Below, piece after piece: positions 20,500 to 33,858 of a DNA stretch of 64,000 nucleotides. Both the position numbers and the translations under genes were made by a program. Origin of the DNA: Pelecanus crispus (taxonomy: Eukaryota; Chordata; Aves; Pelecaniformes; Pelecanidae); assembly GCF_030463565.1 (NCBI RefSeq), contig NC_134662.1:2108001-2172000 (forward strand), given 5' to 3'. How positions within the stretch are numbered: the first letter of the stretch is position 1; every line of letters starts with the position of its first letter. Below the pieces are notes generated by a model, which saw nothing but the letters and a program-made list of their open reading frames with translations, was not told where the DNA came from and searched no databases.

Positions 20500-21700
20500 T
20501 CGTTGCGCGGTCCAGAGCCCGCGTTTCTTCGCGTTTATCACGGCGGCGCGTTGGAGCACCCCGTTATCCAGGACACGACCCCGGGCCCCGAAGCCCTCCG
20601 TGTGCACCGCAGCGCGAGGGACGGGGTCCCCCCCCCCCCCGCTTTCCAACCCGCGGGGCTCCCAGCCGCGACGTCCCCCCGGAACCTCAGCGTCCGCACC
20701 CTGGTGCGGGGACACGTTGGGGCTGCTCGGGGGTCCCCGCGCTCCCCTCGTCCCCCCAGCGCCGCGTGCCCGCACCTTCTCCGGGGTCCCCGCACCCCGC
20801 CCTGCCTGGGGGTGCGCACCCCCGTGCCCAGGGGGGCACCCCGGGGGGCTGCGGGGCGAAGCGCGGCGCAGCCGTGATTCAGCGGGACACGCAGCCGGCC
20901 CCGTGCCGGGGCGAGCCGGGACAGGACGGGCAGCGGCACGGCCCTCCCATGGGCGGGCAGCGCCCGGGGGTGCAGCGCCGAGCACCCCGCTCCAGAGCCC
21001 CGGGGGGCGTCGAGCAGCCCCCGGCACCGAGCAGGCGGCGGGCAGCGGCAGCGGGCAGCGCCGAGCACCGGCGCGGCGGGGACGGAGGAGGAGGAGGAGG
21101 AGGAGGAGGAGGAGGAGGAGGAGGAGAAGGAGGAGGAAGGGCAGGAGGTGGGGCTGGAAGTGAAACCGATTTGGGGGGGCGGGGCGGGGCGGGCTCGTCA
21201 TGTGAACGGCCGCATGCTCGGGCAGAAGTGGGTCAGCGGCGGCGCGGAGGGGCAGGTGCCAGAGCCGCCCGGTGCCTCCGGAGCCTCCCGGTGCCCCCCG
21301 GTGCCGCCCCCCGCCGCCCGGACCCCGCGCCCCCCATGCGCCCCCCGGCGCGCCCCTGACCGCCGCCGGCCACGATGCGAGGTGAGCCCGGGGGGGGCGG
21401 CGGGGGGGACCCCGGGGGGACCGGCCGGCTGCGGGGGGGCAGCGGCAAAAGTTGTCCCCGGTGAGGGGACCCCGCATCAGCGCCGCCGGAGGGGGAGCGG
21501 GCGGGGGGGCGGCGGAGACCGGGGGGGACCCGGGGGGACCGGGGGGACACGCGTCAGCCCCGCGGGGGGACCGGGCATCGGCCCCGCCGGGTGGGTCTGG
21601 CTCCTCCAGCTCCCCCTCTCCTTAGGAATAAAATTCTTGTTTATTTTGCTTCGCTCTCCGACGCCGGCTTAGACCCGCTCTTCAGCTTTGCCTCGCACTA
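20500..21700 (+). promoter_or_regulatory. CpG-island promoter and 5'UTR of the ROR-family gene
   Basis: A strong CpG island leading into the first coding exon. Tandem GC boxes (GGGGCGGGGCGGGGCGGG-type, about 21175-21193) follow a GGA repeat. A TCATGTGA E-box-like motif is at 21198-21205. I infer transcription starts within about 200 bp upstream of the ATG. If it starts 5' of 21200, the leader would hold a start-stop (ATGTGA, 21200-21205), a uORF from 21214 overlapping the main start in another frame, and a seven-codon uORF at 21336-21359 in frame but terminated before the true start. Confidence 0.6.
21084..21141. repeat. (GGA)n microsatellite
   Basis: An uninterrupted run of GGA/GAG triplets with one GAA interruption near its end, in the presumed core promoter of the ROR gene. 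Purine-strand runs of this type often bind GAGA-like or MAZ-type factors; that is inference. Confidence 0.95.
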
Positions 21701-24700
21701 AACCCCTTAATCTCCTCTTCAATATGTTGCTCCCACCAGGGCTGGATTTAGTGCGGGTTTTTTCCCCCTTTTCCCCCTCCCCGTGGTTTGGGGCCGGTGC
21801 GGCCGAGGGAGGCTCCCGTGGGGACGGGTGAGGGACCAGCCGTGATTTCGGGTGCCCCTTACCCAGGGGAGAGGGTGAGTCGCCTGATTTTTATCCGTTA
21901 TTAAAGGCGATTCCTACTTTTCCCCCCGCCATGTCGCCAAGCAGGCGGTTGGGAGGAGGATGGAGGATGGAGGGAGGAAGGCTCCGGCGGGACGATCCAC
22001 CGGGCCCGGTGCCGGTGACGCAGCGGTGGCCGGACCCAGCTCTCCCGGTGCCCGCGCCTGACGGAGCTGCTGGGAGCGTGGCTGGGACCTGACACCGCGG
22101 GGTGGGATTTTTATCCCCCTTCAAAGCAGTTTTCCATCATCGCCTGCCGTGCCTGAGCCCTTCACCCCCGCCAGGACTTGCTTGTGCACGTCTTTAGGTG
22201 TGTTTTTTTGGGCGCGCGTATTTACGTGTGTTTTTTGGTGCGATTTTTAGGTGCGTTTTTGGGCGTACGTACGGGGATGTACGTCTTCGAGCTCCTCAAA
22301 TCTGTTTTTCTCCCTCTCGGGCGCAGCTGCGGGTGCTGCGGCTCTGCCACCCGCCGCACTCTTGTGTAAATGTGGGGCCGGGCGAGGCGAGCCCGCCTCG
22401 TCCCCTTCCCGCCCCGTGACATCCCGGGATTTCACCTTTATTAGTACAGAGGGAAGCATTAACGTGCGCCTAATTAATAACACTGCCTGGCTCTTATGTA
22501 GCGCTTGCACAGCCGGCGCTGGGCTCAATTAGCAGCTGGGTGAACTTTTCCTCTTTTAAAATTTTTTTTTTCCTTCTCCCCCCGCCCAATTACCATGCCT
22601 TGGCCCTAATTAAGGGCCAAACCCCCTGATATCACATCATTTTCCCCCGTCGGGCGTTCTTCCCGCAGTCGCACCCAGCGCAGGGTCCCCATCTCTCGCC
22701 GAAGCGCTGCCTGGTGACACCGAATCGATTCAATCTCCGTTTTCTTCCCCAGAACCACCTCTGCTCTGCCCCTTTCCCCGGGGGCCCCAGCAGCTCCTCG
22801 CTCCTGTCCTTCCCCGCGCCGCGGCTGCGCCGGGGCCGGGCGAGAGGCTTTGCCTTGTATAATCCTATAGGGCTTCCAGCCCTCCCGCTCGCTTGTTTTG
22901 CAAGCGGCGTGGCTCGGAGCGTGCGGTGGCTCGGCAGCCTTTCCGACTTGTCCTAGTGACCTAGATCTGTCATTGGAAAAATCAGAGAGGGCGGAGGAGG
23001 AGCTTCCCTGCCCGTTGAGGCAGCGTGCGCGCGCTGGCGCGGGCGAGGGCGGCCAGCACCCGTCGGCCCTCCCGCACGACGGCTGCGCCCCGACCCGGGT
23101 ACCGCGGGATGGGGATGGGGATGGGGATGGGGATGGGGATGGGGATGGGGATGGATGTCCATGCCCTTTGCCTCCCAAAAATGAGGTTGGAGGAGAAAGG
23201 TGGCCACCGGCAGCGTGGCGTCCCATGGGATCCAGCCGGGATTTGGGATCCTTGACCCCGATAACCCCCGGCAGCGGCAGCACCCGGAGGGGGAAGCGCA
23301 GGGGTGAGGAGGCTCGGTCCCCGTCCCCAGGAGGCAGCGGGGCAGCCCCTGCCCGTCCTGCCCATCCCACCCGTCCCTCCTCCCTGTCACAGTTAACTTT
23401 GAACTTGGCAGCGGCTACATAAAGAGCTGCTAATGTCTAAGTCGTGCCCAGTTTATTGGATGTGGTGAGCGGAGCCGCTCTCACTGCCTTTATTTAGCCC
23501 CATGGAGATAATTCCCCCCTGATTTAGCCGCGGGGCTGGGGGGGTCTCCCATCCCCAGCCCAGTTTCCCCCCACCCCAGGCAGACGGCGGGTCCCCGTCC
23601 CCACCGCCGCACCTTTGCCACCCTCCTGCGCCAGCCAAAGTGCAAAGGGCTGCGTGCCGCGCCGGCGGGGCCGGCCTCGGCGCGGTGCTGCGCGGCGCGG
23701 GAGCCGGTGAACCAGAGCAGCCGGGGCAGGAGCCGGGTGGCCGTGGGGGAGCCTCATCGCCCGCCGCTGCTTGCGGGTGAACCGCTTGCTACGATTTCCA
23801 AGCCGGGGACATGCACTGCGCTGTGGGACAGGGAAAAAATGGCACCGGGACAGGGATCAGGGCGGCTCTGAAGCCACCGGCTCTGTGGCCACAAGTGAGG
23901 GTGGCCCAGGGTCTCCCTGGGGCAGGGGGAGAGCGGCTGAGCCCTGTTCTGGCCCAAAGTTTCCAGGAAATCTCTGCTAATCGATTAAGAAACTGGTTCC
24001 CACGTCCAGCATCGCAGCCCGGCACAGGGCCGGGGTTGCGTAATTTAAATTTTCCTTATTGCCCGCGCAGCCCCAACCCCGGTGCTGCCGGTGCCTCCGC
24101 AGTCTGGAGCCGGCACTTTGAACGTCACGCCGGGGCCGCGCTGGCCGCACGCTGCAGAAACTGCCCCAGCCTCGCACGGCCCCGGCCCGCTTGGGGTTAC
24201 CCATGGGGTGCGTGGGTGGGGATGGGATTCGCCGGCGGTGATAGCCGAAATGCCGGGATGCCGGGGGACCCTGGGGTGCTGCAGCATGGGAGCCCGTTTA
24301 ACAGTAAAACCAACAGCGGATGCAAAGGGGTGATGGTTCCTTTGATTGACCTGTTTATTCCTCCTCCAGCACCCCTACCCCACGGCCACCTTCCCAAAAT
24401 GCAAGGGCGGCTAATTGCTGCGGCGAAGCGCAGTGGCTCCCGGGGGCGGGTGCAGCTGGGAGCAGTGCCCGGTCCTGGGGTTGGAGGTTGCCGCAGGGAA
24501 TGAGGGAGCGGAGCCGGGTTTTGGGGCAGCGATGGGGAGGTGGGGTGGCATCGCAAGTCCCTGCGTGTCCCCGTGGGTCCCTGCGTGACCCCGTGCAGCC
24601 TGGACCCATCCTCCCCTCCCTGCGCTGGGTGCACCGGGGGTGCTGAGCCCAGTGGGGGCTATGCCCCGCGCCCCCGTTTTGCGGCAGGGGAGAGGACGGG

Positions 24701-33700: not shown

Positions 33701-33858
33701 TTTCCAAGCTGCCCTTGATGAAGACCATTTGCAACCTGCACTTGGACAAGCTGGAATTTTTCCGTCTCCTGCACCCAGAGACCGCCATGAACTTCCCACC
33801 CCTCTATAAGGAGGTCTTCAACTCGGAGCTTCAGTACAGCAACCCACGGGAGAGCTAA
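21375..33858 (+). CDS. RORB-like: ROR-family orphan nuclear receptor, RORB-like (complete, 10 coding exons)
   Basis: Nuclear transcription factor (NR1F class) that binds monomeric ROREs. Exons: 21375-21381, 28867-28952, 29053-29194, 29536-29949, 30384-30505, 30841-30973, 32034-32141, 32568-32678, 33009-33121 and 33697-33858. All joins are GT-AG and in frame, giving 465 residues. The start (A at -3) follows an in-frame stop at 21357. The DNA-binding domain (about 10-90) has zinc Cys 10/13/27/30 and 46/52/62/65 and P-box CEGCK. The hinge is exon 4. The ligand-binding domain (about 217-461) has [22 protein letters not shown], His427, Tyr449 and Phe453 (the helix 11/12 lock of RORgamma) and AF-2 PPLYKEVF. 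The MRAQIEV start, QQNNASYSC and [12 protein letters not shown] are RORB features. Ile312 replaces a Cys shared by human RORA, RORB and RORC. The SCAMP4 neighbour argues against RORB itself. RORC is the alternative name an automatic pipeline might give, but its hinge and ligand-binding domain match worse. Confidence 0.93.
22435..22625. promoter_or_regulatory. Candidate intronic enhancer with homeodomain sites and inverted repeat
   Basis: AT-rich patch 1.1 kb into intron 1: TTTATTAGTACAG, GCATTAACG, CCTAATTAATAAC, CTCAATTAGCAGC and CCCAATTACC. At 22600-22620 two perfect 8-bp arms, TTGGCCCT and AGGGCCAA, flank AATTA. The patch stands out sharply from the CpG island next to it. Confidence 0.4.
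22957..22967 (-). promoter_or_regulatory. ROR response element-like site in intron 1
   Basis: The minus strand reads GATCTAGGTCA, matching WAWNTRGGTCA at ten of eleven positions with the TAGGTCA core intact. Located 1.6 kb downstream of the start codon exon, it could mediate self-regulation or REV-ERB repression. Confidence 0.35.
23107..23153. repeat. (GGGGAT)n microsatellite
   Basis: Seven to eight perfect GGGGAT units. This is the same hexamer family as the large array at 15693-16342, so the motif has expanded twice within 8 kb. Confidence 0.95.
26485..26665. promoter_or_regulatory. Candidate intronic element with repeated TAAT cores
   Basis: CGGCAATTAAACGCTG, CTGTAATTGCCATCG, GTGTAATTAGCAGG and GCTAATTAGAGC lie within 150 bp, with related GGTAATTGCAG (about 26988) and GCAATTACGTTGCATAACG (about 27073) further on. 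This looks like homeobox-factor-binding regulatory DNA in the receptor intron. Confidence 0.35.

Follow-up and report, generated by a model that had tools for sequence, protein, structure and literature searches.

Background

Beside RORA, RORB and RORC, a fourth ROR receptor has been described twice: in 2017 by Sakai, who named it NR1F4/RORD, included chicken and reported it as not found in mammals (PMC5553892), and in 2018 as ROR-delta, sister to ROR-beta and reported absent from mammals (PMC6238376). The gene studied here, RORD of Pelecanus crispus, lies in a stretch of 64,000 nucleotides (hereafter the window; C20:2108001-2172000) from a genome of 1,314,409,820 bases in 310 contigs. A first-pass annotation of the window had proposed a RORB-like gene linked to SCAMP4 as a possible fourth vertebrate ROR lost from mammals. 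The novelty implied by this proposal does not stand, the gene having been published in 2017 (PMC5553892) and 2018 (PMC6238376). The window gene is an intact, ordinary member of that published gene, and the new part is a correction that concerns marsupials. We take the author name on the 2018 paper to be Redmond.

Function has been described in fish. Medaka RORd1 (rorca) was activated by 4-hydroxy- and 4-keto-retinoic acid with a half-maximal effective concentration of the order of 100 nM, activated the bmal1a and cyp26a1 promoters and showed a daytime peak in the eye (PMC5553892). In Astyanax mexicanus, rorca and rorcb peaked at midday in surface fish and the rhythm was gone in three cave populations, while surface-fish rorca crispants slept less at night and overall (PMC8297936).

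An intact ROR gene of ten exons

At 21375-33858 on the forward strand of the window, ten exons joined to 1398 nt, corresponding to 465 codons and a TAA stop. The reading frame had no internal stop, and 9/9 introns were bounded by GT-AG. The first exon, ATGCGAG, encodes MR and the first base of the codon for A. The intact 465-residue ROR protein with an MRA first exon, as originally annotated, was therefore confirmed by the exon join, the splice sites and the open frame. The exons are as follows.

21375-21381, forward strand: exon 1, coding part (ATGCGAG); GT donor next, in-frame join
28867-28952, forward strand: exon 2, first zinc finger up to CEGCK; AG/GT, Pfam zf-C4
29053-29194, forward strand: exon 3, second zinc finger; AG/GT, Pfam zf-C4
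29536-29949, forward strand: exon 4, C-terminal extension of the DNA-binding domain, and hinge; AG/GT, alignment
30384-30505, forward strand: exon 5, start of the ligand-binding domain; exon join, PDB matches
30841-30973, forward strand: exon 6, ligand-binding domain; exon join, Pfam and PDB matches
32034-32141, forward strand: exon 7, ligand-binding domain; exon join, Pfam and PDB matches
32568-32678, forward strand: exon 8, ligand-binding domain; exon join, Pfam and PDB matches
33009-33121, forward strand: exon 9, ligand-binding domain; exon join, Pfam and PDB matches
33697-33858, forward strand: exon 10, helix 11-12 with AF-2 (FPPLYKEVF), tail and stop TAA; exon join, loop length

Pfam matched zf-C4 at residues 9-77 (E 5.8e-33, 113.6 bits against a cut-off of 21.1) and Hormone_recep at residues 262-436 (E 1.9e-29, 103.1 bits). 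Both features by which ROR membership was judged were found: a zinc-finger pair with the ROR C-terminal extension, and a ligand-binding domain with an AF-2 helix. In the alignment, the 22-residue extension behind the zinc fingers was identical to that of shark and sturgeon RORB. The residues H427, Y449 and F453 were invariant across 11 aligned rows, and AF-2 was conserved; these three are presumably the agonist-lock residues of the RORs.

A search with the RORD protein against about 5.8 billion proteins gave 2696 matches among 7983 scored candidates, of which the best 120 were listed. Within the best 120, identity was 98% over the full length to a penguin protein, 90% to two turtles and 74% to sawshark and chimaera. 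The bird entries, named 'ROR-beta-like', were followed by turtles, lizards, tuatara, caecilian, frogs, lungfish, coelacanth, sharks and chimaera, and the teleost 'RAR-related orphan receptor C a/b' was also present. Although the RORD of this bird is known from DNA alone, as a decaying or silent copy surviving by chance would be, the identities to penguin, turtles and cartilaginous fish, the open frame and the intact state of every splice site make such a copy very unlikely.

Four ROR genes and their phylogeny

A genome search found four RORs, in the window on C20, at C46:39.26-39.30 Mb, at C7:19.37-19.38 Mb and at C22:2.07 Mb, so that RORA (C7), RORB (C46), RORC (C22) and RORD (C20) coexist in one genome. 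The paralogues were assembled from their individual exons: RORB was read from its second exon through to the stop codon, and RORA lacked exon 2, which lay beyond the stretch taken. RORC entered the tree minus its last exon, which was found neither there nor in the next 9.9 kb.

In a 31-row tree, the window RORD fell within a clade of 21 rows (support 100/100), outside RORA, RORB and RORC. This clade comprised shark, chimaera, coelacanth, lungfish, amphibian, reptile, bird, marsupial, bichir, bowfin and teleost sequences. The C46 gene paired with rat RORB (100/100), the C7 gene with human RORA (100/99) and the C22 gene with human RORC (100/100). An earlier 28-row tree, minus this genome's paralogues, gave the same result (100/98). 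The presence of shark and chimaera in the RORD clade, and of shark in the RORB clade, indicates that the split predates the divergence of jawed vertebrates. Of the 139 collected ROR matches, 24 were chosen by hand as tree rows; the tree was rooted for drawing only, and the groups for the approximately unbiased (AU) test were defined once the first tree was known.

A closeness to RORB had been claimed and was borne out. Among solved structures, the best match was the RORB ligand-binding domain (1n4h, 377 bits), ahead of RORA (4s15, 304.5) and RORC (5nti, 251), and zinc-finger exons 2 and 3 showed a single difference, S for P, from the RORB of the same genome. These matches, the many records named 'ROR-beta-like' or RORB and the 68% identity between the window protein and this genome's RORB would also suit a window gene that is merely the avian RORB gene, or a copy that arose from it recently, under a spurious RORD label. 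Against this, C46 bears a distinct RORB that pairs with rat RORB, the window gene shares its clade with shark RORD, and forcing the window gene and three birds with RORB was 77.7 log units worse (p-AU 6e-55). Membership of RORB (NR1F2) was accordingly rejected for the window gene, and the alternative, already refuted, retains practically no probability. A genome lacking a separate RORB, or a protein nesting inside avian RORB or RORC, had been named beforehand as outcomes contrary to a fourth gene; neither was observed. Bowfin, bichir and four teleost rorca/rorcb sequences could likewise not be forced with RORC (p-AU 0.0015).

The spacing between HP (helix 11) and FPPLY (helix 12) was five residues in 129 of the 139 ROR matches and six in 6 (four in the RORB clade, one named RORB, one unnamed), with the pattern unmatched in the remaining 4, the wombat model included. 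It was six in the RORA, RORB and RORC sequences of the PDB. The pattern was picked after viewing the alignment, and a majority of these 129 sequences lie outside any tree, which makes the count descriptive and not an independent test.

Proposed function

Avian RORD is probably a monomeric, clock-linked activator. It would act in the nucleus and bind ROR response elements as a monomer, using the zinc-finger pair and the extension that follows it; this mode of binding is suggested by the near-identical zinc-finger exons and the RORB-identical extension. Transcription would be activated through the AF-2 helix and could be tuned by ligands such as oxidised retinoids. Its predicted targets are genes of the clock (bmal1/arntl) and of retinoic-acid breakdown (cyp26a1).

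SCAMP genes and the fourth arm

The annotated linkage to SCAMP4 was recovered, the gene being read about 18 kb downstream of RORD in the same window.

51658-60308, forward strand: SCAMP4, five exons (51658-51786, 54896-55052, 58211-58312, 59280-59397 and 60132-60308, the last with the stop); Pfam SCAMP

The exon with the start codon was not located in the window. Taken singly, one of three exons scored 26.9 bits in Pfam, just below the cut-off of 27. Identity was 77% to what we take to be human SCAMP4 and 55% to the presumed SCAMP5, and the numbering of each SCAMP copy in the genome follows sequences assumed in the same way.

In the rest of the genome, SCAMP exons were found on C46 (27.1 Mb), C7 (two genes, 22.64 and 22.68 Mb), C22 (1.44 Mb), C45 (2.29 Mb) and C83, an 85-kb contig that duplicates the C22 gene. 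The presence of SCAMP exons on every ROR contig (4/4) points to the four-way paralogon that had been predicted from presumed human positions, here matched within one genome. By the same SCAMP evidence, RORD occupies the fourth arm.

Taken together, the paralogue search, the tree and the SCAMP contigs uphold the claim of a fourth ROR ohnologue near SCAMP4, distinct from avian RORB and RORC. We conclude, with a probability of roughly 0.96, that the window gene represents RORD (NR1F4, ROR-delta) in birds, as orthologue of the fourth ROR to arise from the early vertebrate genome duplications, and that it is an ordinary ROR. The gene is intact, carries its domains, has an orthology of its own and keeps conserved neighbours. 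Several points nevertheless weigh against this conclusion. Neither an exon search nor tblastn with the human end located RORC exon 10 in C22:2060000-2079400 (19 kb). The support for the paralogon was drawn from one companion family, SCAMP, and the occurrence on 4/4 ROR contigs is a raw count. Published work leaves open where the ROR family is rooted (PMC6238376), and a tree rooted for drawing does not give the order of duplication among the RORs. As to function, the targets, ligands and clock or sleep role suggested for the bird gene are carried over from fish by orthology alone, and the fish evidence covers one of the two teleost copies (rord1 = rorca).

SCAMP1 was present in two copies, at C45:2285500-2305300 (a contig of 22.2 Mb) and C46:27121000-27130900 (86.8 Mb). 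Seven pieces of the C46 region were 79-87% alike to C45 and one 51-base piece was 94% alike. From this alignment, C46 was taken as Z and C45 as W, a probable gametologue pair; the C45 copy is probably the W copy. The expectation that RORB lies on Z agrees with its position on C46. A further duplication was seen at C83:38000-40500, which repeats SCAMP3-like exons of C22:1430000-1437000 with equal or near-equal scores; C83 is probably an unmerged haplotype of the C22 region.

One fish record (P0088), labelled semaphorin 6Bb, is a RORD-type receptor by sequence. SEMA6B presumably lies on human 19p13.3, and the label may derive from a neighbouring gene, which would fit the same region.

RORD in marsupials

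Marsupial matches to RORD were P0062 of Trichosurus vulpecula (532 residues, a cluster of 16 sequences) and P0121 of Vombatus ursinus (473 residues). In the 31-row tree, both fell inside the tetrapod RORD clade (100/98). Forcing the marsupials with RORB was 60.5 log units worse (p-AU 6e-5) and with RORC 33.7 log units worse (p-AU 2e-4). The claim that the gene was lost from mammals is thus wrong in part. The published trait 'not found in mammals' does not hold for RORD either, and the assignment of the window gene to RORD is unaffected.

Identity of the Trichosurus protein was 75.4% with the window protein and 61.5% with the RORB of this genome. Its helix 11-12 loop is of the five-residue kind, and its tail, ELQYSNLRES, is the one found in a turtle RORD. 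The wombat protein and a wombat ZFAND5-like protein (P0198), of the type that flanks RORD in the window, are each recorded on a contig of size 7,198,562, from which they very probably share a scaffold. The wombat model runs into unrelated sequence after the residues LLSP, without a proper C-terminus, and the possum model begins with 78 extra residues, probably from untranslated sequence.

These 'ROR-beta-like' proteins could instead be diverged RORB or RORC copies, or contamination, with RORD absent from all mammals. The marsupials share a long branch (0.33), so that the tree and the AU test are subject to the same long-branch pull of the model. Moreover, the marsupial zinc finger NCPIDRTSRNRC is close to NCPIDRASRNRC of this genome's RORC, the C-terminus of the wombat model is defective, and just two species are named for the receptor. 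The clade support and both AU tests argue the other way, as do the loop and turtle-identical tail of Trichosurus, its higher identity to the window protein (75% versus 62% to RORB), the equal wombat contigs and the 16 sequences of the Trichosurus cluster. Altogether, diverged copies or contamination appear improbable. Survival of RORD in marsupials is the likely explanation, on the same scaffold as ZFAND5-like, as in quail, turtles, caecilian and coelacanth; both genes may have been lost together from placentals, and RORD may have evolved quickly in marsupials.

The named matches listed by the protein searches (best 120 of 2696 and best 120 of 2720, some unnamed) included no RORD from a placental or a monotreme, and no report of a marsupial RORD was found in the open-access literature searched. 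If RORD persists in marsupials, its loss falls to placentals, perhaps also monotremes, and not to mammals overall. Marsupials would then offer a mammalian setting for the role of RORD beside RORA, RORB and RORC in the clock, sleep and retinoid breakdown.

The ZFAND5-like neighbour

A gene encoding A20 and AN1 zinc fingers extends over approximately C20:2103605-2109929, partly beyond the start of the window.

1779-1929, reverse strand: ZFAND5-like first coding exon, A20 zinc finger; Pfam zf-A20 (E 5.4e-11), exon join
225-318, reverse strand: ZFAND5-like second coding exon; exon join

It is apparently a third ZFAND5/6-type paralogue. Its matches came from birds, turtles, crocodilians, tuatara, coelacanth, caecilians, sharks and marsupials, the last including koala, Petaurus, Gracilinanus, Monodelphis and Notamacropus besides wombat. 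The shark matches may be ZFAND5 proper, their orthology being unsure. In a 19-row ZFAND tree, for which 16 of 120 ZFAND matches were chosen by hand, root support was 46/34 with a long-branch warning, and a grouping of the marsupial sequences with human ZFAND5 could not be rejected (p 0.165). For the marsupial ZFAND5-like genes, orthology is suggested by the linker and AN1 motifs that they share and by the wombat contig, and is less firm than that of the receptor. ROR and ZFAND5-like lay on equal-size contigs in Latimeria, Microcaecilia, Eretmochelys, Carettochelys, Emydura, Coturnix and Vombatus, pairs that were noted by eye from matching sizes and not counted systematically.

Other searches of the window

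SCAMP4 and ZFAND5-like were chosen by eye among the open frames and then submitted to Pfam. A six-frame search with presumed SCAMP motifs gave no match in the window; the SCAMP4 exons identified afterwards do not fit those motifs. Scanning by codon usage, with the receptor as training set, returned chiefly the receptor and repeats. TrAA12, the sole Pfam match from ten long open frames (15448-16563), was rejected as spurious; it overlaps a minisatellite. Nothing in the window reached Rfam gathering scores, and a few presumed ADAT3 motifs found no match there. GC-rich minisatellites with units of 12 to >200 bases were seen at 4083-4754, 15693-16340, 16894-17396 and 40849-41574, and some are crossed by long open frames.

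Comparison with known systems

NR1F4/RORD of Sakai is the same gene, the published list holding chicken 'RORblike' XP_003642912.2 and turtle and frog RORblike (PMC5553892). Its clade spans birds, reptiles, amphibians and two teleost copies; that paper reports no mammalian member, whereas two marsupials are placed in RORD here. Its main text has 0 occurrences each of SCAMP and synteny (PMC5553892). ROR-delta (PMC6238376), judging from its description and not from a sequence comparison, is the same fourth ROR, and in the present tree its clade is joined by teleost rorca/rorcb and marsupials.

RORB (NR1F2) is the nearest paralogue, one residue off in the zinc-finger exons and 68% identical in this genome. 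It differs in being a gene of its own on C46, in its hinge and in a helix 11-12 loop one residue longer. Database names (ROR-beta-like; teleost RORC a/b) mask a single orthologue group. Despite their RORC name, the four teleost rorca/rorcb sequences sampled fell in the RORD clade (RORC placement, p-AU 0.0015), with two copies in teleosts compared with one found in this bird genome.

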